Shown here: piece after piece, positions 1 through 13,456 of the stretch
How the letters are laid out: every line of letters starts with the position of its first letter
Numbering within the stretch: position 1 is the first letter of the stretch
Assembly (NCBI GenBank): GCA_017416855.1
Contig: JAFQAZ010000031.1
Coordinates: forward strand, 1-64,000
DNA: 64,000 bases
Direction of reading: 5' to 3'
Source: Clostridia bacterium
GTDB lineage: Bacteria > Bacillota > Clostridia > UBA1381 > UBA9506
Program-made: the position numbers and the translations under genes
The notes under the pieces: model-generated
Told to the model about the DNA's origin: nothing
The model's input: only the letters and a program-made list of their open reading frames with translations
The model's database searches: none

Positions 1-48
1 AAAATCCTTATACTTTTCAATTAAATCATCTGTTATAATTTTAATCAT
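1..48 (-). CDS. N-terminus of an unidentified protein (truncated by window edge)
   Basis: The first 16 codons of a leftward gene are visible, beginning MIKIITDDLIEKYKDF, with a GGAAG ribosome binding site about 8 bases upstream of the ATG. The rest lies outside the window, so no function can be given. It diverges from the XRE regulator gene at 302. Its start region carries the palindrome TTGTACAA, which also occurs in the regulator promoter. It is probably part of the integrated element. Confidence 0.45.
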   Translation of the reverse strand, partial: MIKIITDDLIEKYKDF

Positions 49-250
49 TGTACAACTTCCTTTCTATATTTATATTATTATTTTACCACGAACATAATAA
101 TATTCCATGAAGTTGCCAATAATTTACTGTTTTTTACAAAAATAAGCTGCTGTTCGTATAATGCATTGTCTTATTTTGTAATTATATACATCGTATCGTC
201 TTTGATTATACCAATAAATAGTAAAATGTCAACTGTTTTTGTTAATTTCA

Positions 251-279
251 TTGACGAATTAGACATTGTGTTGTACAAT
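251..279 (+). promoter_or_regulatory. Sigma-A promoter of the XRE/ImmA pair with overlapping palindrome
   Basis: TTGACG (251-256) and TACAAT (274-279) are separated by 17 bases. The -10 lies inside an inverted repeat ATTGT-gttgt-ACAAT (265-279), a plausible operator for autorepression. A start near 286 would leave a very short leader, which favours the TTG start codon at 302 over upstream in-frame starts. Confidence 0.65.
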
Positions 280-301
280 ATTGATGAAGGAAGTGATTCT
301 G

Positions 302-736
302 TTGGATTTATATAAAGATTTGATTCGTAAGAGAATAAAAGAAAAATTTGGTACGATAGAAAATTTTTCGAAACATATGAATATTCCTCGTACAACGGTT
401 AATTTTATATTAAAAAACGGTGTGTCATTATCTAATTATGGTATGGTAAGTACAATTTTAAAAGAACTTGACATTCATTCCATTAATGAACAACCTATCG
501 TCATTGATGAAAAGGTATTGGATTTTATAAAAATTTACAGTTCTCTTGATGATATTGGGAAGCACACTGTAGCCGCTGTAGCAGAAACTGAGTATAGGCG
601 GCTTCACCCTGAATTTTTAGAAGATGCTATTATTGCTGCATATGGGAGCATAACTTCTGGTAAGCCTCTGACAGAAGAAGAAAATGCAATTATGGATATA
701 GTTGACAAAATAAAAAAGGACAACAATGAAAAATAA
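302..736 (+). CDS. XRE-family HTH transcriptional regulator (ImmR-like)
   Basis: A 144-residue protein with an N-terminal helix-turn-helix (about residues 12-50; IENFSKHMNIPRTTVNFIL covers the recognition region) and a longer C-terminal part without a recognised domain. The TTG start at 302 is preceded by AAGGAAG with good spacing, and the promoter geometry excludes the ATG at 284. It overlaps the following metallopeptidase gene by 11 bases. This repressor-plus-ImmA arrangement is known from the regulatory modules of integrative elements and prophages such as ICEBs1, where the protease destroys the repressor after DNA damage or cell-cell signalling. That role is inferred here. The DNA is markedly AT-rich compared with genes to the right. 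Confidence 0.7.
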   Translation: MDLYKDLIRKRIKEKFGTIENFSKHMNIPRTTVNFILKNGVSLSNYGMVSTILKELDIHSINEQPIVIDEKVLDFIKIYSSLDDIGKHTVAAVAETEYRRLHPEFLEDAIIAAYGSITSGKPLTEEENAIMDIVDKIKKDNNEK

Positions 737-1445
737 TTCACCAAAGTATATAGCTTTTAAAACACTAATTAAACACAAACTTTACTTATTGAATAATTAT
801 GCTGTTTTAAGACATATCATAGAATCTAATCAGTTTACGATTATTGAGTATAAAAAACATACTAACTCAGAACCAGTGTCTGAACTTATAAAAAAGTTAA
901 CGATTGAAAAAGAAATCCAGCAAAACGACTCTTTCTTATATATTAACAACAACCTAAAATTTGTATTTGTTAATGCAGATATTTCAGATGAAGACAAGTG
1001 TTCACTTCTGCGGCATGAACTTGGACACATCTGTGACCCTGATTTAAAGAATACTGGTTCACAAAACTCCAGAATTAAAAGAGAAGAGTTTGCAAATGAA
1101 TTCTCCTGTTATACTAAAAATCCTGGCATTCGTTTAAAGGGTTATGTTTTTTTAATAAAAAAATGGAAGTTATTAGTCGCTGTAATGGCATTACTAGCAT
1201 GTCTTTTAGGAGCTGCATTTATAACTAATACTCTAATCATACCACCAGCAAAGCCTGTAACGGGTAATGTCTCAACCTATGTAAATTCTGACAGTACATA
1301 TTATGTAACATCGGCAGGCAAAAAATATCACCTGAGACACTGTATCATCATTAAGTATAAAAATAATCTGACTGAAATAACATTAAACGATGCTGTAAAT
1401 AAAGGATACAAACCATGCTTAATATGTATTCCTGAAGAAGAATAA
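726..1445 (+). CDS. ImmA/IrrE-type metallopeptidase with a transmembrane segment and Cys/His C-terminal domain
   Basis: A 239-residue protein. The N-terminal part contains the zinc-peptidase motif HELGH (residues about 97-101, in RHELGHICD), typical of ImmA/IrrE antirepressor proteases. After a basic stretch there is one hydrophobic membrane segment (about residues 146-168). A C-terminal domain follows with the pattern YHxxxC...GYxPCxxC, a small module seen at the ends of some nuclease and peptidase proteins and probably metal-binding. The membrane anchor and C-terminal module are unusual for ImmA, which is normally soluble. The likely substrate is the upstream XRE repressor (inference from operon overlap). 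Confidence 0.65.
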   Translation: MKNNSPKYIAFKTLIKHKLYLLNNYAVLRHIIESNQFTIIEYKKHTNSEPVSELIKKLTIEKEIQQNDSFLYINNNLKFVFVNADISDEDKCSLLRHELGHICDPDLKNTGSQNSRIKREEFANEFSCYTKNPGIRLKGYVFLIKKWKLLVAVMALLACLLGAAFITNTLIIPPAKPVTGNVSTYVNSDSTYYVTSAGKKYHLRHCIIIKYKNNLTEITLNDAVNKGYKPCLICIPEEE

Positions 1446-1575
1446 AATTTTATGAACATCCATAAGCGCGTATTTTATCTCCGCATCCACAAACAATATC
1501 ACAACAAAGATATCAAACTAACAGAGGATTAATCCTTATTGGACGCACAAAACTTTCACATATGCTATATAACCA
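1446..1575. other. End of the integrated element, non-coding
   Basis: AT-rich sequence between the ImmA-like gene and the tRNA-Leu fragment. It contains a perfect 12-bp palindrome, AGGATTAATCCT (1525-1536), about 40 bases from the putative crossover region. Recombinase arm-type or accessory protein sites often lie at such positions, but nothing specific can be proven. The bases just upstream of the tRNA fragment do not form a tRNA 5' half. Confidence 0.4.
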
Positions 1576-1626
1576 TTAGGTTCTGGTGTCTACGATGTGC
1601 AGGTTCAAGTCCTGTCATCCGCACCA
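1576..1626 (+). mobile_element. attR-like site: displaced 3' half of tRNA-Leu(UAG)
   Basis: From TTAGGTTCTGG through the variable region, T arm (GCAGG TTCAAGT CCTGT) and CATCCGCA-CCA this is the 3' part of a leucine tRNA beginning in the anticodon loop (anticodon TAG). No D arm, 5' acceptor strand or matching anticodon stem lies upstream. Many tyrosine recombinases integrate into the 3' half of tRNA genes, starting at the anticodon loop, and leave exactly such a fragment next to the original terminator. The intact tRNA-Leu and the integrase are predicted to lie left of position 1. Confidence 0.75.
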
Positions 1627-1670: not shown

Positions 1671-3770
1671 TTACAGTTCCAATGCCTGGCGGAACTGTTT
1701 CAATTCTGTACCGATTACATAATTCACCTGACGGATTTTCCACTCTAAATGCCATCTGTCTGTCATATAGAGCATAGATGGCTCAAAACCTAAAGACGAA
1801 TCCTTCTCTACTAAGGGAATGGTCGCCTCTGTATTTTTAATTTCTTCCTTCAGCATGGCTTCCATCTCATCAAAGATTTTAGCTAAGCCTTCTTTTGTGT
1901 CCTCAACATACATTTTACATTTCAAAATGTGCCACTCTTTTGCCCGTTTACCTGTTTTTACGCAGTTGGTTAAGAACTGGCAGAGGTTAATTAAATAGTC
2001 AAGTTTCTCGTTCTTACCATTTAAAGGATTGAGTAGTTCCATTGCCGCCTCAAAATGATTCAACATTTTTTCCTGGAAGGCCACTTCTTCTTTAATACGC
2101 ATACCAAGAGGCGAAATTCTCCAGTCAGTACGGCTGATATAAGTGGTTTCGCAAATACGGCTGCCAAAGTGCGCACCCTCATATTCCGGAATTTTTGCCA
2201 TAGTACCCAAGTGGCTGCCGCCGGCCAAGTTGAAGGGATAAGAAGGGCCTACCCGGTAAGCACCGTACTGGTCGGCATCACTGGGAGTATAGTAACGAAT
2301 GCCTTCGCTGAAATGCATCATTGCTTTATCCACAGCCTCATAATTTTCTTCGCCGAACTCAGAAATCAGAATGGTTTTTAAAAGCTTGTTCATATCTTCT
2401 CTGGGTTCAAAGAAGGCATGTTTGGAAAGTTTACTGATAAAGGAAGGATAAAAACCGTAATGATGGCCTTCCATAATACCCACAAGGCCCCAATCATCGT
2501 GAGCCTTTCTCATGCCTTCATAGCGTTTCATCCACTGATAGGGCATCGGTTCATAAGGTGCCACGCCAAAATCCCAGGTTCTGCCGCCGGTGTTTGTCAT
2601 AGAATACAGGCGGATGCCCCGTTTTTTAGCAGCAGCTGCTTCACTGGCAAAATATTTGCCCGGACCTGCAACTTTTAAAGAATAGTCTGCACCCTGGCCG
2701 GTACTTTTACCGTATTTAAACTGTTCGAACATTTCAAAGGTTGCCTGCAGAGAAATATCCGTAGGCAGACTTTCAATCAGCTTAAGTCTTGCTTCTTCCG
2801 GTCTTGAACCCCAGTTATAGGTCCAGAACACAATGTCGGCATCGGGTTTATATTTACGAATAGTCTTCTTGATGAAGTTCAGCCAAACGGGATAGTCATA
2901 GCAGGGATACCAACCGGCACTGGGTTTGTCGCTGGGAATGCCGTCCTTATGGATTTCATAATATCTTCCCTTGGCAATATGGGGGTCTTTACTGGGGAAT
3001 TCCACACTTTCCCCCACTAAGGTTACACCCTTTAAGCCGGGACATTCGCGAAACAGTTTACCGTAATTTCCTTCATAGTATTCTTCGGCTTCCGGTGCCT
3101 CGGGGCTCACGTCACTCTTTAAATAGCTGTAAGCATATACATCAATACCATATTTTGCTGCGCGGTCAATCAGTTCATTAAAGTTCATATAGCCGCAAGT
3201 GGTTTTGTTTACATCCTTGGTAAACACCAAAATGGCATCTCTGCCCTCGTGGGCCACACGAAGGAGATACTCATCCGGAAACTCATCAATGCCGTAACCG
3301 GAATGAATCATCTGAGGATAGAACATCGGCTTTTTCTTAATATCGCCAAAGGCCAAAACAGGCGCTTTGGCAAAACACATTAAATCTTCTATGTAGAAAA
3401 GAGCCTGAGCAATACCACGTGGGTCGTGACCGTAAATTTTGATACCCTGAGCACTTGTCTGAATTAAAAAGCCTTTATAGGATGCAAATTCGCCTAAATC
3501 CACACCGGCATCTTCGGCCAGTTCCAGGGTAATGGTTGCATTGTCGCCAAAGTTAACAACACCGGCTGTAACGCCCATAGAAACATTTAAAAAGTCCACA
3601 AAATCATTAGCCGCAATTTTAACCACATCGCAGGCATTGGGGCTGATTTTAATCAGGGCGCCATTTATAATTTCAAATTCATTTTCTTTTTTAGTACGGT
3701 TTACATTTCTGACATCACGGTCATGAACTTCAAGCAATCTTTTTCTGAAGTCATACATTTTTTCAGCCAT
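1671..3770 (-). CDS. Putative glycoside hydrolase, GH20/GH67-like architecture
   Basis: A 699-residue cytoplasmic protein without a signal peptide. Residues about 25-150 resemble the alpha/beta N-terminal domain found before the barrel in GH20 and GH67 enzymes (ending IKIYGHDPRGIAQALFYIED). A probable TIM-barrel follows, with acidic motifs such as LVGESVEF, DIVFWTYNWG and the histidine-rich IMEGHHYG, then a helical C-terminal region. The glutamates are candidate acid/base residues, but I cannot assign the family or substrate. AGGAG lies 10 bases before the ATG, and the gene has its own consensus promoter. It is monocistronic beside the integration junction. A role in intracellular breakdown of an imported glycan is inferred. 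Confidence 0.55.
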   Translation of the reverse strand: MAEKMYDFRKRLLEVHDRDVRNVNRTKKENEFEIINGALIKISPNACDVVKIAANDFVDFLNVSMGVTAGVVNFGDNATITLELAEDAGVDLGEFASYKGFLIQTSAQGIKIYGHDPRGIAQALFYIEDLMCFAKAPVLAFGDIKKKPMFYPQMIHSGYGIDEFPDEYLLRVAHEGRDAILVFTKDVNKTTCGYMNFNELIDRAAKYGIDVYAYSYLKSDVSPEAPEAEEYYEGNYGKLFRECPGLKGVTLVGESVEFPSKDPHIAKGRYYEIHKDGIPSDKPSAGWYPCYDYPVWLNFIKKTIRKYKPDADIVFWTYNWGSRPEEARLKLIESLPTDISLQATFEMFEQFKYGKSTGQGADYSLKVAGPGKYFASEAAAAKKRGIRLYSMTNTGGRTWDFGVAPYEPMPYQWMKRYEGMRKAHDDWGLVGIMEGHHYGFYPSFISKLSKHAFFEPREDMNKLLKTILISEFGEENYEAVDKAMMHFSEGIRYYTPSDADQYGAYRVGPSYPFNLAGGSHLGTMAKIPEYEGAHFGSRICETTYISRTDWRISPLGMRIKEEVAFQEKMLNHFEAAMELLNPLNGKNEKLDYLINLCQFLTNCVKTGKRAKEWHILKCKMYVEDTKEGLAKIFDEMEAMLKEEIKNTEATIPLVEKDSSLGFEPSMLYMTDRWHLEWKIRQVNYVIGTELKQFRQALEL

Positions 3771-3988: not shown

Positions 3989-4041
3989 AAAATATATGTA
4001 TTTTTTTATTGTTTCTGAAAGTCTTGTATGGAGGCTATGCA

Positions 4042-5463
4042 ATGATTTCTAATTTCGATTTTGTGGAAAAACTGGATCCAAAAGCATTTAAAATTATATT
4101 GAATATAGAACGCTACGCCAAGATTAAACCCTTTAACATAGGCAACGATCTTCGGCACGTTTTGGAGCATCTGTGCGGTTCCATTGTGTGGAAATATAAT
4201 TTAAAAGACGAAATGATTGCCGAATGTGGCGGAAAAGCCCCAACCTTACATGAACAGTTCCGACTGCTCCGGGATAAGCACGGTTTCATTGCACGTATGC
4301 AACAAAAGCCAGGCAATGAAACATTAACGCCTCTGCCCGTTTTTAAGGTATCGCTTAGTTACCGTAACCGTAACAATCAATTAGTCTCCCGATTGGCAGA
4401 ACCGGAAAAATGGACGGACAAACAGATTGCTCATTATGAATGGGCGGACAATTTTTTACGACAGATCGGTAATGATTTTTCTCACGAAGATAATCCCTTT
4501 TTAGAGCACATCTTTGACAAAACCTATGAAAACGTCATTTATGCCCTTGAGTGTCTTCAGAAATATCTTCGTTTATATTTTAATGTAAACAAAGACGATG
4601 TTCAGCCTTTCAACGAGGACAAAATGCCCATTGCTGATTATGAAATCACCGGTGCCTGTGTGCCGGAAGACTGGGAACGCACCTCCTGCGAAAAGGAATA
4701 TACCGCCAACCGCTACGAGGATTATAGGAGTGAAAGCGTTGGGTGCTCTGTCATCCGCCAATATCCACGGACGGACAGCCGTTCTGTTTTTCTCCGTCGT
4801 GCACCGGATGTGTATTTAGCCGAAGACAACTGCGGTTCCCTTTTAAATAAAGTAACTGTTCTTTCGGAAGGTGGGCACAGAGAAAAACCATTTTATCTGA
4901 TTGCCTATGATTTCAGAACAAAGGCTTCCGTGCTGAATTCGGCATTTTTAGCAACCCTCTCCGTCAAGGAGCGGCTACAGCTATGCTTATCCTATGCTGA
5001 GACCCTGGCCTGCTTCCACAATAACCCCACGCCGATTTATCACAGAGTGTTTTCTGATAACTGTGCTTATTACGCCGACGAGCGGGATAAAAACAGAGGC
5101 ATCAGCACCGCTATTATTAAATTTGAGTATGCCAAAATTGCAGACGGGCGTGCTGAAACCGTTATTGGCAACCAACCGGCCAATGTCATTCGCAATCAGG
5201 AGGATAAACGGTATATCGCTCCGGAATGGAATTCGTTGACAAACCCTTCTGCCAACGATTGGTCTAAAGTGGATATTTACGCCTTAGGTATTTTATTTGC
5301 TGATATTATGATGGGGAAAATTGGCGGATATCCTATGAGCGAAGTGGCCAAAAACCCGGAAGCAAAAGTCATTTTGCCTCTTTTACAAAAAATGTGCACA
5401 TCAGCACCGGGCCGGCCGGATATCAACACTGTTTGTCGCACACTGAAGGAGATGTGTCAATGA
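4042..5463 (+). CDS. DUF4145/HEPN-like domain fused to a pseudokinase
   Basis: A 473-residue soluble protein, first gene of a five-gene operon. The start at 4042 follows TGGAGG by 7 bases. The N-terminal ~180 residues are mostly helical and include FLRQIGNDFSHED, which resembles the conserved R-x-x-G-N-x-x-x-H signature of DUF4145, a branch of the HEPN-like folds often found in defence genes. The C-terminal ~230 residues look like a protein kinase: YIAPEW (APE motif) and SKVDIYALGILFADIM (helix F) are clear. The catalytic loop, however, reads HRVFSDN, with the HRD aspartate missing, and the DFG position reads FEY. I therefore infer an inactive pseudokinase, perhaps a scaffold or sensor for the kinase encoded next. 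The stop overlaps the next start (ATGA). Confidence 0.6.
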   Translation: MISNFDFVEKLDPKAFKIILNIERYAKIKPFNIGNDLRHVLEHLCGSIVWKYNLKDEMIAECGGKAPTLHEQFRLLRDKHGFIARMQQKPGNETLTPLPVFKVSLSYRNRNNQLVSRLAEPEKWTDKQIAHYEWADNFLRQIGNDFSHEDNPFLEHIFDKTYENVIYALECLQKYLRLYFNVNKDDVQPFNEDKMPIADYEITGACVPEDWERTSCEKEYTANRYEDYRSESVGCSVIRQYPRTDSRSVFLRRAPDVYLAEDNCGSLLNKVTVLSEGGHREKPFYLIAYDFRTKASVLNSAFLATLSVKERLQLCLSYAETLACFHNNPTPIYHRVFSDNCAYYADERDKNRGISTAIIKFEYAKIADGRAETVIGNQPANVIRNQEDKRYIAPEWNSLTNPSANDWSKVDIYALGILFADIMMGKIGGYPMSEVAKNPEAKVILPLLQKMCTSAPGRPDINTVCRTLKEMCQ

Positions 5464-6299
5464 GAATAGAAAACAGACAAAACAGAACCTATAGTTATGA
5501 TGATCAATCCCCTTTATATGCCGGTGAAAACAGCCATGTTTATTATGCGATGGATGAAACCTTCTGCCGGAAGGTGTGTTTAAAAATTGTTTCTTTTCAA
5601 AATGCCTCCCCTACTGCGGAAGGCCTCTTAAAAAAAGAAGCCATTGCCCTTTCCAAAGCAGGCGCCGCCTCAACCCATGTGCCAATGCTGTTGGATTTTT
5701 GGTCCGACCGGAACAAAAAACTGTTTTATCTGGTGATGCAATATATCCCCGGCGATTCCCTTCGCATCCGGATGCGTTCCTGCGACCGCAGAACCTTTAA
5801 TAACTGGATGATTTCTCTTTGCGATACCTTGCAAAGTGTTCATAACACCCACATTTTCCATAAGGATATCAAACCGGAAAATGTCATCATCACCCCAGGC
5901 GGCGATGTGTATTTGATTGATTTTAACATCAGCATTGGCAAAGCAAATTTAAAGGACGGCACCGAATTTTACCGTGCACCGGAGATGTATCAGACCGGTC
6001 TTTCTGCCGCCAGAAGCCAATCGGATATTTTCTCTTTAGGCGTGATGATGTATGAATATTACACCGGTACAAAACCCGTTGACGGTGTGCAGTACGGCAC
6101 AGATATTTTTCAGGCAGATAATACCGTTTGGGGATATTTTGCCGAACCGGCTTCCCTCTGCCCCGGTATGCCACGACAGCTTAATAACATCATTGTCAAA
6201 TGCATGAATCGCAATCCCCTGCAACGCTACCGGCAGACCGCCGATTTAAAACGCGATTTAATTCAAGCATCAAAGGAGTTTAGAGCATGGACAAATTAA
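5460..6299 (+). CDS. Serine/threonine protein kinase (Hanks type), soluble
   Basis: A 279-residue single-domain kinase. The glycine-rich loop is degenerate (LYAGENSHVY). The VAIK-type lysine is in VCLKIV, followed by a helix C glutamate (KKEAIAL). HKDIKPEN supplies the catalytic aspartate and asparagine; the metal-binding motif is DFN instead of DFG, and TEFYRAPEM is the APE region. All residues needed for catalysis appear present. There is no transmembrane segment or PASTA repeat, so it is not a PrkC-type receptor. The ATG overlaps the upstream stop, with AAGGAG 8 bases before it, implying translational coupling to the pseudokinase. Targets are unknown; the partner proteins of this operon are the obvious candidates. 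Confidence 0.8.
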   Translation: MRIENRQNRTYSYDDQSPLYAGENSHVYYAMDETFCRKVCLKIVSFQNASPTAEGLLKKEAIALSKAGAASTHVPMLLDFWSDRNKKLFYLVMQYIPGDSLRIRMRSCDRRTFNNWMISLCDTLQSVHNTHIFHKDIKPENVIITPGGDVYLIDFNISIGKANLKDGTEFYRAPEMYQTGLSAARSQSDIFSLGVMMYEYYTGTKPVDGVQYGTDIFQADNTVWGYFAEPASLCPGMPRQLNNIIVKCMNRNPLQRYRQTADLKRDLIQASKEFRAWTN

Positions 6300-6436
6300 A
6301 AATTCTTGTTGATTTTGAATCCTTTCTGAAAAAACGTTTTCCCGGCAGGGACAAGCCCATTATCCGTGATGTTGAAGTCCTGCAACCGAAAAGCTTTAAC
6401 GACCACCGCTTTAATGAATGGAGGAAAAACAAATGA
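6287..6436 (+). CDS. 49-residue operon protein of unknown function
   Basis: A small gene (MDKLKILVDFESFLKKRF...) that begins inside the last 13 bases of the kinase gene and ends overlapping the helicase start (ATGA). AAGGAG lies 8 bases before the ATG. The protein is basic, with no membrane segment or cysteines. Its C-terminal codons contain the ribosome binding site of the helicase, so its translation probably couples the kinase to the helicase. The overlap at both ends and the good ribosome binding site argue for a real gene. No family was recognised. Confidence 0.6.
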   Translation: MDKLKILVDFESFLKKRFPGRDKPIIRDVEVLQPKSFNDHRFNEWRKNK

Positions 6437-9400
6437 GCGATTTTCTTTCATTTGATATTAAAGTCCCCGGTGAGATTCGTATTAAGCTGACCAACGCGGC
6501 CATTAACGCCGCTGCCAAGCTACAGTGCGGAAACCGCTGGTTTCAGAACTGTTCTGCCTCTTCCCGCATTCTGGTTTCCTTCGGTTCAGAAGGCAATGTT
6601 TATTTTATGCATCTGGGCGGTAATATTTTTACCTGCAAGGTTGCGGCCGAAGATAATGATCCGCGTAATTTTTATTTTGTAGCTACCAACATACAACCTG
6701 AAAACTACAACAAAAAAAATATGGCACTCCACTCGGGTTTGTGTTTTTACTTTGAGAGTGGCATTATGATTTCCTATTTTAATCAAAGCAAAGGCTTCCA
6801 CTACCGAAACGGCAATTCTGTACTCTCTTCCTTTGCCAACCGCAATTGTACGGCCGGCTTAAACGCCATTGTAACAGCCTTTAAAAACAAAGAACACATC
6901 ACAGCATCTCAGGAAGAGGACAAAGGACCTTCTCCCCAACTGATGGAATACTTAAATTTAGCCAGAGAATATTCTGAAGCTGAGTTCGAGCTGGAAGAAA
7001 CCCGCGCACTCTCCAATGATCCCCTGTATTATGACGGCGTTTCCGGTTGTGACTATGAGCGCATCGCCAACAGTACATACCGCTTTTTCGTAAACCGCTT
7101 AGATGATACCTTATATCCCATTGGCGGCAAGGTAGAAATCACCGATGCAAACGACGAAAAACTCCGTGCCACCCTTGTAGATGCCGGGACAGAAGAAGAT
7201 GGACGATATTTTGTGGACTTGCTGTTTAACAGTCAGCTCAGCATCAACATGATTCCCTCTGTAGGTAGTATTACCTTGAGCTTTTCCAGCGTGAACCGCG
7301 ATGTACAGCAAAAAGCCATTGAAAAGATTTTAGACGGCACCTCCGACGCCCGCTATTTAAACGATGTTTTGGGCTTAGCACAGCCTATAGGCTTTGAAGA
7401 CCTTGATTTATCCGGTGTGAAAGCTGTTTTAAAAAGCTATAAAAACAAACCCAACGACAGTCAGGAAGACGCCATTTGCAAAGGCATAAAAACCAAGGAT
7501 GTCTATCTGGTTATGGGTCCTCCGGGTACCGGAAAAACCACGGTTATTCTGGAATGGATAAAATACTTTGTCCACGAAAAGAAAATGCGTGTTCTGGTTT
7601 CTTCGCAAAACAACAAGGCTGTTGATAATGTGCTGGAGCGAATCATCAAAGAAGAAGGCATTAACGCTCTGCGCATCGGTAGCGAAAACAAAGTCGCCGA
7701 GCAGATTAAGCCCTGCCTGTTTGATCTGAAACTGGAATCTTTGCGCAGCAAAATTAAAACCACAACAGATAACCACGCCGAAACCATTGCCCCTTACACC
7801 GAATACTGGACCGGCATTAACGGCTCTTTACTGTCTGTTGAGCCTTTATACAGCAAAAAAGGCGAACTGGAAAAAGCACTGGAAGCAGCCTGCAATGAGC
7901 TGCTGGCCTCAGCATATCAGTTAGAGGATTTGTTGGCTCGGTACAGAACCCGTGAACAGATAACAGAAGCCAATGTTTTCAAAATTAACCTTTTGATTGA
8001 TAAGGAGCAGACTTACAGAAATAAAAACGCTTTTCTGCGGTTTATTCTGAAACCGATATCGCTATTTAGAACCTGGCGCATCGGAAGACTGATTACCAGA
8101 CATGATGACAACCTGATGTTCTTATCACAGCTTCTGACAAGCTATAACAACAAACGGGATGAACACATTCATCTATTTGACCACAGCGTTACAGAGGTGT
8201 ACATTCCTGAACGGGAATCTGCCGCTGAAATTGCTGAAAAAATGGCTGATTTCTCCATTGATTACGATGGTCAGCTTGACCCCTATGCTATTTATGACCT
8301 GACTCAGTTTAAAGAACAGGACATCACGGCATATAGCTATTATACCAGCATCACCTCTGCCCTTCAAACTGCTCTTTCAAGAGCTGCCGCTCTGATCACC
8401 GAGCTACAGAGATGGCAGAGCGTGGCTGTGGATACCTCAAACTACACTTTAAAGAACATTCTGTTTGAAGAAGTGAATCTGGTTGGTGCCACCTGCATTG
8501 GTATCAATTCACAGCACCGCTTTGCTGATCTGAACTTTGATGTGAGCATCATTGACGAAGCCGGACAGATACAAATTCACAATGCCTTGGTGCCTATGAG
8601 CGTTTCAAACAAACTGATTATGCTGGGCGACCACAAACAAATCCCGCCAATGGCCGATCAGGAATTGTTGGACATTTTAAACGAACACCAGATTCCCACC
8701 GATTTGTTGGAAAAAAGTCTCTTTGAAGATATGTACGAGCGGTTGCCGGAAGAAAACAAAAGTATGCTGGATACTCAGTACCGTATGCCGGCAGAAATTG
8801 CAAACATCATTTCGGATTGGTTTTACGGTGGTGAATACAAATCATTTACAGGTAAATTCGATTTGCCTTCTGCTGTTCCTGCGCTGTCCGACCGTCCCTT
8901 CCTGATTGTTGACACCTCAGACAGCGGTAAGGAACGTTGGGAAAGAAGCATACCCCAAGGTGAACAGATTGTTCACGACAACCCCCTTGAAGCTTCCGTT
9001 GCTGCACAAATTGTCGCTGCTTTGCATCAGGATGGTTATAACCTGAACAATGTGGGCATTATTGCCGCCCTAAAGGCACAGGTGGATTTAATCAGAAAAG
9101 AACTGCGCAAAAATGATATTCCTGCCGAACTGACCAATGAACTGGCCGCCACGTTAGACAGTTATCAGGGTCAGGAGCGCAACATTATTATTTATAGCTT
9201 CGGTCGCAGCTCCGGAGCTGACCCAAGCCGCAACGGTGTTGGCTTCTTAACAGAGCTCCGCCGTTTGAATGTGGCTATGTCCCGCTGCAAGGAAACCTTG
9301 ATTATGATTGGTGATATGACCTTTTTATCCAGCCGTGAATCAGAAACGGATTATAAAGGGAATCTCATCACCGACGAACGAAAGACCGAAAAGAATTTCG

Positions 9401-9525
9401 GCCACTTTATTCAGCATATGCTCACAGGTGTTACTAACGGCTCCGGTGAAATCATTAATGTACAAACCTTTAAAGAGCGTATGGCCCAATGGAATCACGG
9501 TAACGAAGGAGGGATGACCGAATGA
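6433..9525 (+). CDS. Superfamily 1 helicase, UPF1/DNA2/NAM7-like (COG1112 type)
   Basis: A 1030-residue protein. The N-terminal ~330 residues have no recognised domain but include beta-rich sequence that may form an OB-like barrel. The helicase core then has motif I GPPGTGKT (residues 362-369), motif Ia SSQNNKAVDNVLER, a long helical insertion (about 430-650), motif II DEAGQ (from residue 708), motif III LGDHKQIPP, a QYRMP box, motif V YQGQERNIIIYS and motif VI LNVAMSRC. This is the Upf1-like subgroup, which acts on RNA or DNA with 5'-3' polarity. The ATG at 6433 is preferred because GGAGG is 8 bases upstream; an ATG at 6418 lacks such a site. Helicases of this group occur with kinase domains in Mokosh-type phage defence, the closest known parallel. 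Confidence 0.85.
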   Translation: MSDFLSFDIKVPGEIRIKLTNAAINAAAKLQCGNRWFQNCSASSRILVSFGSEGNVYFMHLGGNIFTCKVAAEDNDPRNFYFVATNIQPENYNKKNMALHSGLCFYFESGIMISYFNQSKGFHYRNGNSVLSSFANRNCTAGLNAIVTAFKNKEHITASQEEDKGPSPQLMEYLNLAREYSEAEFELEETRALSNDPLYYDGVSGCDYERIANSTYRFFVNRLDDTLYPIGGKVEITDANDEKLRATLVDAGTEEDGRYFVDLLFNSQLSINMIPSVGSITLSFSSVNRDVQQKAIEKILDGTSDARYLNDVLGLAQPIGFEDLDLSGVKAVLKSYKNKPNDSQEDAICKGIKTKDVYLVMGPPGTGKTTVILEWIKYFVHEKKMRVLVSSQNNKAVDNVLERIIKEEGINALRIGSENKVAEQIKPCLFDLKLESLRSKIKTTTDNHAETIAPYTEYWTGINGSLLSVEPLYSKKGELEKALEAACNELLASAYQLEDLLARYRTREQITEANVFKINLLIDKEQTYRNKNAFLRFILKPISLFRTWRIGRLITRHDDNLMFLSQLLTSYNNKRDEHIHLFDHSVTEVYIPERESAAEIAEKMADFSIDYDGQLDPYAIYDLTQFKEQDITAYSYYTSITSALQTALSRAAALITELQRWQSVAVDTSNYTLKNILFEEVNLVGATCIGINSQHRFADLNFDVSIIDEAGQIQIHNALVPMSVSNKLIMLGDHKQIPPMADQELLDILNEHQIPTDLLEKSLFEDMYERLPEENKSMLDTQYRMPAEIANIISDWFYGGEYKSFTGKFDLPSAVPALSDRPFLIVDTSDSGKERWERSIPQGEQIVHDNPLEASVAAQIVAALHQDGYNLNNVGIIAALKAQVDLIRKELRKNDIPAELTNELAATLDSYQGQERNIIIYSFGRSSGADPSRNGVGFLTELRRLNVAMSRCKETLIMIGDMTFLSSRESETDYKGNLITDERKTEKNFGHFIQHMLTGVTNGSGEIINVQTFKERMAQWNHGNEGGMTE

Positions 9526-10760
9526 CAAAACACACCATAAAAGCAGAAGTAGCTTTAAAAGATATCTGTGCACGTTACCGTGTCATTAAAAAAAGTGAAA
9601 TTGAAGCCTTTGGTCCCGTTTACTACCCCATTGCCAGAATTGAAGCTGATATGCACGAAAAAACCTTTGAAGATTTTGATGCTGTGCAGGAATCGGTTCT
9701 CCGTTTCATTTCCATTGGTTTTAAAGAGGAAGCAATGATTGCCAACCTCATGGGACTTACCACAAATTATGTGCAGAATATGATGAAAATGCTTTTATCG
9801 TATGGTCATATTGATCCTCAGCGAAATATCACCCCATTAGGGATGGAATCCCTTGCTCAGGGACAAAAAATTATGCTCATTTTCACCAAGCAGGTCTTTT
9901 TACTGGATGCTTTGAACTGCAACATCATCCGCATAGATAAGGACCTTGACCGAACCATCGTGGAGCATCCGGATGAAATGACCAATTCAGAAAAGCACAT
10001 CACATTTTTAGACCATGCCGCAGGCATCAGCAAGGAAGATGTGGAAAAAACATTGAAAGAATCGCAATTTTCTACTCTGCAGCGCTTAAGCGGCGGAATG
10101 AACATCAATGTAACGGCCGTTTCTGATGTGCGATGTCTGGGCATCCGGTATGTAAAAAGCTACCTTTTAAAGCTCAAGGGCCATCCGCCGGTGATTTTTG
10201 TTAAGCGCTTTGATTATAACGGTAAAGGTGCCGAGCGATTTTACTGGCTTCCCTTTAGTGTGGAAGAACAAAGTGAGGGCACATTCTTTGGCTTGCCGGA
10301 TATGCAGGTACACAACTACAGTACCTCTGCCATGATTCACGATGCTTATAACCGGATGTTGGAAAATGGTGCTTCCGAGTGGGTGCAGGAAGAAATGCAG
10401 CGTAGTCTTGAAGAGCTAACGAAAAAAGTCTATGGCATTGAGCTGATGCCGGATGCCACGGAAAACACCGTACATTCCAGCGGTTTTTCCAAATATGCAA
10501 CCAGCGTTCTCCGTTTGTTGTACGGTTTTGGGAAAGATGGCCTTTTCTCGTTGGTTGATGACAGAATCTCCGGCAACATTATGATTTTGTATCCCGATAA
10601 AACTGATACTAAGCTAATGCAATGCGCAGAATATGTCTGTCAGGCACTTGACCAGTTTGCCTTTGATAAGGTGCATAAGTTTATGGAAAAGCGAATGCAA
10701 AAGAACGACAGCATTATCGAAGATATGACAAAAATCCTGAAAGAATTACTTTCTGTGTAA
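9522..10760 (+). CDS. Unknown winged-helix-containing protein, last gene of the kinase-helicase operon
   Basis: A 412-residue protein that starts in a 4-base overlap with the helicase stop, with AAGGAGG 9 bases before the ATG. Residues about 30-110 look like a domain ending in a winged helix (SIGFKEEAMIANLMGLTTNYVQ, then a wing-like segment and TPLGMESL). The remainder is mixed alpha/beta with no catalytic signature I recognise. No HKD phospholipase motif, PD-(D/E)xK motif or membrane segment could be found. It could be the effector or the nucleic-acid-recognition subunit. Conserved coupling to the helicase is the only functional clue. Confidence 0.5.
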   Translation: MTKHTIKAEVALKDICARYRVIKKSEIEAFGPVYYPIARIEADMHEKTFEDFDAVQESVLRFISIGFKEEAMIANLMGLTTNYVQNMMKMLLSYGHIDPQRNITPLGMESLAQGQKIMLIFTKQVFLLDALNCNIIRIDKDLDRTIVEHPDEMTNSEKHITFLDHAAGISKEDVEKTLKESQFSTLQRLSGGMNINVTAVSDVRCLGIRYVKSYLLKLKGHPPVIFVKRFDYNGKGAERFYWLPFSVEEQSEGTFFGLPDMQVHNYSTSAMIHDAYNRMLENGASEWVQEEMQRSLEELTKKVYGIELMPDATENTVHSSGFSKYATSVLRLLYGFGKDGLFSLVDDRISGNIMILYPDKTDTKLMQCAEYVCQALDQFAFDKVHKFMEKRMQKNDSIIEDMTKILKELLSV

Positions 10761-13305: not shown

Positions 13306-13383
13306 CGCAAAAACCCTCTTAGGGTTCAAGTCCCTTCAATCAAAAAAAATAAAGGCACCCTACAAGGGTGCTCTTTATTTTGG
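13306..13383. repeat. Terminator-containing repeat, copy B (tRNA-Thr terminator)
   Basis: The 78-base partner of 12954-13031. On the minus strand, GAGCACCCT-tgt-AGGGTGCC plus a T-rich tract directly follows the tRNA-Thr gene and is its terminator. Confidence 0.75.
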
Positions 13384-13456
13384 AGCTGGAGATGGGACTT
13401 GAACCCACGACCTGCTGATTACGAATCAGCTGCGCTACCAACTGTGCCACTCCAGC
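13381..13456 (-). tRNA. tRNA-Thr (anticodon CGT)
   Basis: On the minus strand the acceptor GCTGGAG pairs with CTCCAGC. There is a D arm with GTTGGTAGCGC, an anticodon arm CTGAT-TCGTAA-TCAG with anticodon CGT, and a T arm GTGGG-TTCAAGT-CCCAT. CCA is encoded (13381-13383). It has its own promoter. Confidence 0.93.

Follow-up and report, generated by a model that had tools for sequence, protein, structure and literature searches.

The analysed window comprises bases 1 to 64,000 of contig C31 (123,520 bp), from a Clostridia bacterium genome assembly of 2,368,526 bases in 32 contigs that is 96.9% complete. The following features lie at its left margin.

1-48, minus strand: start of a divergent reading frame, truncated by the contig end (read from the sequence only)
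302-736, plus strand: small putative DNA-binding regulator, upstream of the ImmA gene
726-1445, plus strand: ImmA/IrrE-type metalloprotease with an HELGH motif (Pfam PF06114 Peptidase_M78, 5.4e-6)
1556-1562, plus strand: arm TCACATA of the rebuilt attP; C1 carries the mirror arm TATGTGA, and both are spaced 13 bp from the central TT
1557-1583, plus strand: right end conserved in the element family, CACATATGCWATATAACCATTAGGTTC (one base different in locus L221, two mismatches to the pattern in genome G097)
1576-1580, plus strand: attR core TTAGG
1576-1626, plus strand: displaced tRNA-Leu(UAG) 3' half of the host, starting at U33 in the anticodon loop and ending with CCA; it rejoins with a 5' half on contig C1
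1627-1665, plus strand: terminator-like repeat that belonged to the original tRNA gene of the host; the host chromosome starts here

The 3' half is 51 nt long (TTAGG...CATCCGCACCA), with an inverted repeat of 15 bp (1628-1659) and a T-rich run after it; the initial annotation had named both the tRNA-Leu(UAG) fragment, beginning in the anticodon loop, and the terminator after it, and both were borne out. ARAGORN found no intact tRNA-Leu spanning this position or elsewhere in the window, where the sole tRNA was a tRNA-Thr at 13381-13456. The last 30 nt of the 3' half occurred a single time in the 2.37-Mb assembly, and the only other match to them within 3 mismatches was a tRNA-Leu(CAG) on contig C24. 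The first 30 nt of the window had no other occurrence in the same assembly, and no exact copy of the 51-mer was present in genome_contigs or viral_contigs, collections that may lack the records of this genome or of one very close to it. Window base 1 is the start of C31, with no further sequence of that contig on the left, so the left side had to be checked on other contigs. The partner half was sought within the same genome in 76 pieces (644,343 bases including overlaps and the window), taken at tRNA places and at both contig ends. Two features were found on contig C1.

C1:172859-172896, up to the shared TTAGG (to 172899 counting TTAGGTTC): severed 5' half of the host tRNA-Leu(UAG), GCGGATGTGGCGGAATTGGCAGACGCGCCAGATTTAGGTTC
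C1:173023-173106, same direction as the severed half: complete replacement tRNA-Leu(UAG), called by ARAGORN, with a sequence unlike that of the host gene

The 5' half passes straight into non-tRNA sequence (CCGTCC...) near the end of C1. Joined at the shared core, the C1 5' half and the window 3' half form an 84-nt tRNA-Leu(tag) according to ARAGORN, with 7/7 acceptor pairs and 5/5 anticodon-stem pairs. Because the halves rejoin to a perfect tRNA, the host gene was cut in two within the anticodon loop. Each half was found a single time in the sequence searched from this genome. The two junctions have 8 bp, TTAGGTTC, in common, the tRNA is rebuilt at neither of them, and the common core amounts to 5-8 bp. 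Window 1-1626 thus holds the right end of an element situated to the left, and the insertion destroyed the host tRNA-Leu(UAG) gene. C1 and C31 are unjoined in the assembly, with the element interior and the first 154 residues of the recombinase missing; this N-terminal part was absent at >50% identity from the contig ends examined in the same genome. We infer that a single insertion has one of its ends on C1 and the other on C31.

An integration junction in tRNA-Leu(UAG) with the element to the left had been proposed in the initial annotation, together with an integrase and an intact tRNA-Leu with an identical ~50-bp 3' end at the other end. The severed 5' half on C1 confirms the junction, and a recombinase gene does lie at the other end, that of a large serine recombinase (LSR). 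The intact tRNA-Leu is absent, and a severed 5' half and a different tRNA-Leu(UAG) stand there instead. The lack of a repeat of the 51-bp fragment had been regarded beforehand as evidence against a junction; no repeat was found, yet the junction is real because the element does not rebuild the tRNA.

The replacement tRNA is located 123 bp inside the left end and 164 bp from the start of the severed 5' half. It was considered as the intact partner of a classical insertion and rejected on its acceptor strand (GCGGGCG) and variable arm, which mismatch the window fragment. With RF00005, 39 tRNAs scored over the cut-off in the genome. All 10 of the 10 class-II-length tRNAs were typed by ARAGORN; five are tRNA-Leu (CAA, UAA, CAG, GAG, and UAG), and the C1 replacement is the only UAG gene among the 10. 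Nothing except tRNA attained the Rfam gathering score on the left end. CUA accounts for 29/7131 codons across 13 ORFs of the window; the cell presumably has to decode it and probably relies on its guest to do so.

The LSR gene points toward the replacement tRNA, ends 55 bp beyond it, and runs off the end of C1, leaving 385 residues to be read. The full LSR from locus L221 has Resolvase, Recombinase, and Zn ribbon domains. Further, distant serine recombinase genes lie near the ends of C2, C16, and C17 of the same genome, so the assignment of the insertion to the C1 LSR rests on its position and on its relatives, and by these the C1 recombinase probably carried out the insertion. The rebuilt attP reads TCACATA-13-TT-13-TATGTGA, with 7-bp arms that are symmetrical about TT in 3/3 reconstructions, and the TT at the core start was the best of six centers tested in each of the three. 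The symmetry score was matched by 72, 20, and 18 of 5000 shuffles, the three sequences being related to one another. Symmetrical arms around a central dinucleotide are the form expected of a serine integrase site. The crossover is predicted at this TT, corresponding to U33-U34 of the tRNA. TTAGG is present at all nine left junctions (eight loci) and at three right ends. In G097, the native 3' half reads TTAGGATC and the left end TTAGGTTC, which limits the true common core to TTAGG at most.

Relatives were collected with one scan of genome_contigs using the C1 recombinase as the query, which returned 14 loci. Ten of these had LSR identities of 94-97%, four of them over a partial query; the close loci are titled Clostridia or Oscillospiraceae MAGs, with goat, water buffalo, or water deer gut in 7/10 titles. 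The four more distant loci (26-45% LSR identity) contained no tRNA-Leu. Among phages and plasmids, LSR relatives were found only at <60% identity, the best listed being a Subdoligranulum plasmid at 41%, and viral_contigs held no relative or exact match of ImmA, the LSR, the left end, the right end, or the 51-mer. At seven of the ten close loci (L218-L221 and L223-L225), a host tRNA-Leu 5' half ending in TTAGG adjoins the same left-end sequence, and a replacement tRNA-Leu(UAG) is placed 163-164 bp from the start of the 5' half. L218 and L219 have inserted genes between the replacement tRNA and the end of the recombinase; in the other five loci, the recombinase end directly follows the tRNA. The host 5' halves vary in the acceptor stem among hosts; among the replacement tRNAs, the only differences are at two acceptor pairs (GCGGGCG or GCGGATG) and, in L218, at a single base. 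On the host side of the 5' half, the closest ORF was read in seven loci, that of the present genome among them, and is a different one in each; the sole similarity among these ORFs is 33%, between two sigma-factor-like proteins of L220 and L224.

Both ends of an element are on one contig at L221 (genome G098). This 2.6-kb element contains the replacement tRNA, the recombinase, and a 162-aa ORF matching the end of a 473-aa ORF in G097, and no phage gene was recognized in its ORF list. Its ends share only TTAGGTTC, with the LSR inside, its right end is that of the window with one base changed, and its host halves rejoin to tRNA-Leu(tag). Twenty genomes were searched for the right end with up to 3 mismatches allowed, and three had it: the present genome, G098 (L221), and G097 (L220). 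It was missing at that threshold from 8/10 genomes with a close LSR, where divergence or gaps may account for its absence. A third pair of halves is formed by L220 and L232 of G097, in which the 3' half fits its own 5' half and rejoins with it. Acceptor strands pair at 7/7 positions within each of the three true pairs and at no more than 6/7 Watson-Crick positions in the six cross-pairings, the one between L221 and G097 giving six Watson-Crick pairs and one G-U.

The order at L218 is host 5' half (GCGGCTG), leader, 5' half of a replacement-type tRNA severed at the same site, another leader, and intact replacement tRNA. By this layout, a second element seems to have entered the replacement tRNA of the first, which seems to have been the only target left at the locus. 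The layout is absent from three of the ten close loci. L222 (1123-1426) has an intact, different host tRNA-Leu(UAG) and, 151 bp on, the last 14 nt of the replacement tRNA, the terminator, and the recombinase; L226 has the terminator and recombinase without a tRNA; and in L230 (1167-1552), an intact, different tRNA-Leu(UAG) is joined to the terminator of the element and a stub of the recombinase. These three may be read as decayed or deleted copies.

No empty site and no orthologous junction were found in relatives by way of the neighboring genes (1671-3770, NhaC, and kinase). The contig of genome G004 starts inside the kinase gene; G004 has 29 tRNA matches, and the five of class-II length were all typed, none as Leu(UAG). 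Just right of the junction, window 4009-10760 contains two kinase-like genes, an SF1 helicase (PADLOC MkoA, 1.6e-103), and an MkoB-like gene, a cluster that looks like a Mokosh-type defense system. The last three Mokosh-type genes and the end of the first are also found in G004, ~10 kb upstream of the same NhaC gene.

Two further tRNA arrangements were noted. On C30 of the present genome (482-646; L068 and L213), a tRNA-Trp 5' half cut after the anticodon loop lies ~43 bp upstream of a complete tRNA-Trp, and a consensus promoter was seen by eye before the half. Its 3' half was not found in the contig ends examined; the arrangement may mark another element that splits a tRNA and supplies its substitute. 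At L116 (2271-3014, on C2 of G006), another tRNA-Leu(UAG) is followed by an ORF resembling a serine recombinase C-terminus (by eye) and then by further ORFs of a possible mobile element.

The XRE and ImmA regulatory genes named in the initial annotation both exist as genes; the ImmA assignment was upheld by the Pfam match, and the XRE assignment stays unconfirmed, the gene at 302-736 having no family match in Pfam, PHROGs, PADLOC, or NCBIfam. The ImmA-like protease is likely regulatory cargo of the right end. Its closest relative (44%) is in L110 (2-1972, on C21 of G009) and is directly followed by a different, Ccr-like serine recombinase; a similar-looking small gene (by eye) precedes this homolog. 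Upstream of the LSR, L218 carries a relaxase (2.6e-33) and a NikA/MobC-like gene, and an AAA protein is also encoded beside the LSR there; L224 has matching ORFs and, in addition, an ArdA-like protein beside the LSR. The mobilization, AAA, and ArdA-like genes likely lie inside the element; no right end was found at L218 or L224, and relaxase and mobilization genes are absent from the 2.6-kb element of L221. A type I/IIG-like methylase with specificity domains (L218) and an AbiEi-like protein (L219) are placed inside the element because they are encoded between the recombinase and the replacement tRNA.

Taken at the strength of the rejoined halves and the relatives, it is very probable that a serine-recombinase element sits in the anticodon loop of the host tRNA-Leu(UAG), breaking the gene and supplying its own complete tRNA-Leu(UAG). 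Most tRNA islands use another mode, in which a tyrosine integrase inserts the island and the tRNA is rebuilt from a ~50-bp repeat (available text of PMC4383910), and five Phage_integrase-family genes are present in this genome. An island of that kind, with its intact copy lost in an assembly gap, is nonetheless scarcely credible here: the 5' half of exactly this tRNA exists on C1, where it breaks off at the same core and gives way to non-tRNA sequence, and the complete element of L221, carrying an LSR, shares only the short TTAGGTTC between its ends. It is also very unlikely that an old rearrangement or gene duplication left the halves behind, with the intact C1 tRNA native and no active element. 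Remnant-like states do exist (L222 and L230), and the interior is not assembled in this genome. Against this, the leader and replacement tRNA are nearly identical in eight loci that differ in their flanks and in their host 5' halves, five loci of different genomes have LSRs with 94-98% identity, and L218 holds a tandem insertion.

In the proposed mechanism of serine-recombinase insertion, the recombinase would join the symmetrical attP to the TTAGG of the tRNA gene, so that the left side (C1:172859) keeps the host promoter with the 5' half and the right side (window 1576) keeps the host terminator with the 3' half. The element would then supply its own tRNA-Leu(UAG) in the same direction, starting 164 bp from where the severed half begins, and the host promoter would read through the dead half into it. 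With such read-through, CUA decoding would depend on the element until precise excision.

The last step was compared with promoter-like sequences. A sigma70-like site of at least 9/12 is present within 150 bp before the severed 5' half in 8/8 loci, beginning 38-93 bp before it; the site reaches at least 11/12 in six of the eight and 12/12 on C1 of the present genome. Random 150-bp pieces of the same loci reached at least 9/12 in 363/2000 cases and at least 11/12 in 33/2000. In the 123-bp leader, by a sigma70-like scan that leaves other promoter types outside it, a promoter-like site (9/12) was seen in one of nine leaders. Transcription of the replacement from the host promoter through the dead half is thus the simplest reading. 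The insertion may instead be as described and the replacement tRNA have its own promoter, making the host promoter irrelevant, a variant that differs only in the expression step and that we regard as possible, if doubtful. It would fit the conservation of the leader, its folding somewhat better than shuffles (z -2.6, 2/200 as good), the one leader with a 9/12 site, and the promoter types that the scan leaves out; the eight leaders without a promoter-like site and the sites before the host half in every locus weigh against it.

In tRNA-dependent lysogeny, described for the actinobacteriophages Fionnbharth and Gaia, cores of 8-17 bp are combined with a phage-borne cognate tRNA (available text of PMC10865867). 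The present element is similar in that attB overlaps a host tRNA gene, the core is short, the tRNA is rebuilt at neither junction, and the element carries a tRNA of the disrupted isotype (on C1 and at seven further loci). It is not a member of that class as defined, because the definition, in the part of PMC10865867 available, names a phage tyrosine integrase. Unlike those temperate phages with tyrosine integrases, it has an LSR, a core of 5-8 bp, a host among the Clostridia, and a predicted crossover at U33-U34, and the family shows no phage gene in one complete element and mobilization genes beside the LSR in two relatives. Lactobacillus johnsonii, the host of prophage Lj965, is a Firmicute. 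Lj965 likewise carries a cognate tRNA without rebuilding the target, but is a phage; the wider occurrence of tRNA replacement beyond tyrosine-integrase phages is left open in section 11 of the same source (PMC10865867, available text).

The LSR is ~29% identical to proteins annotated TndX. The element resembles the Tn4451-type serine-recombinase integrative mobilizable elements in its LSR and very short direct repeats (PMC5704250, as far as its text is available). The relaxase and MobC next to the LSR in L218, for which L224 has matching ORFs, would be a further likeness. The Tn4451 type is reported in the same portion of that source to disrupt dispensable genes, unlike here (PMC5704250). As in Islander-type tRNA islands, a displaced tRNA fragment marks one end and the predicted crossover falls in the anticodon (PMC4383910, available text); unlike in these and in classical islands, the target is not regenerated by a long core repeat, and a serine rather than a tyrosine recombinase lies beside the tRNA. 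Serine recombinases are not known to target tRNA genes according to the available text of PMC4383910. In Sinorhizobium, a host tRNA is reported to be replaced by a foreign one, with tyrosine integrases except in one ambiguous case (PMC11476347, available text). A literature search, with most subscription papers outside its reach, found no serine-recombinase element with a replacement tRNA, and the word "tRNA" does not occur in the main text of PMC10083194.

The replacement of a tRNA, described for phages with tyrosine integrases, appears here in a serine-recombinase family of gut Clostridia, and tRNA genes become a target for serine integrases. Tools seeking an intact tRNA plus a fragment would miss such elements or misplace their ends. 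On a broader reading, for which the chances appear evenly balanced, a mobilizable serine-recombinase family spreads among gut Clostridia by destroying a single-copy tRNA gene that the cell cannot do without, and its promoterless replacement works only once it is correctly inserted behind the tRNA promoter of the host. If this is true, the place and direction of insertion would be self-checking, the replacement would rebuild the target so that elements stack in tandem, and the host would lose the element only by precise excision. The arrangement suggests a toxin-free way to make a host dependent on its element.
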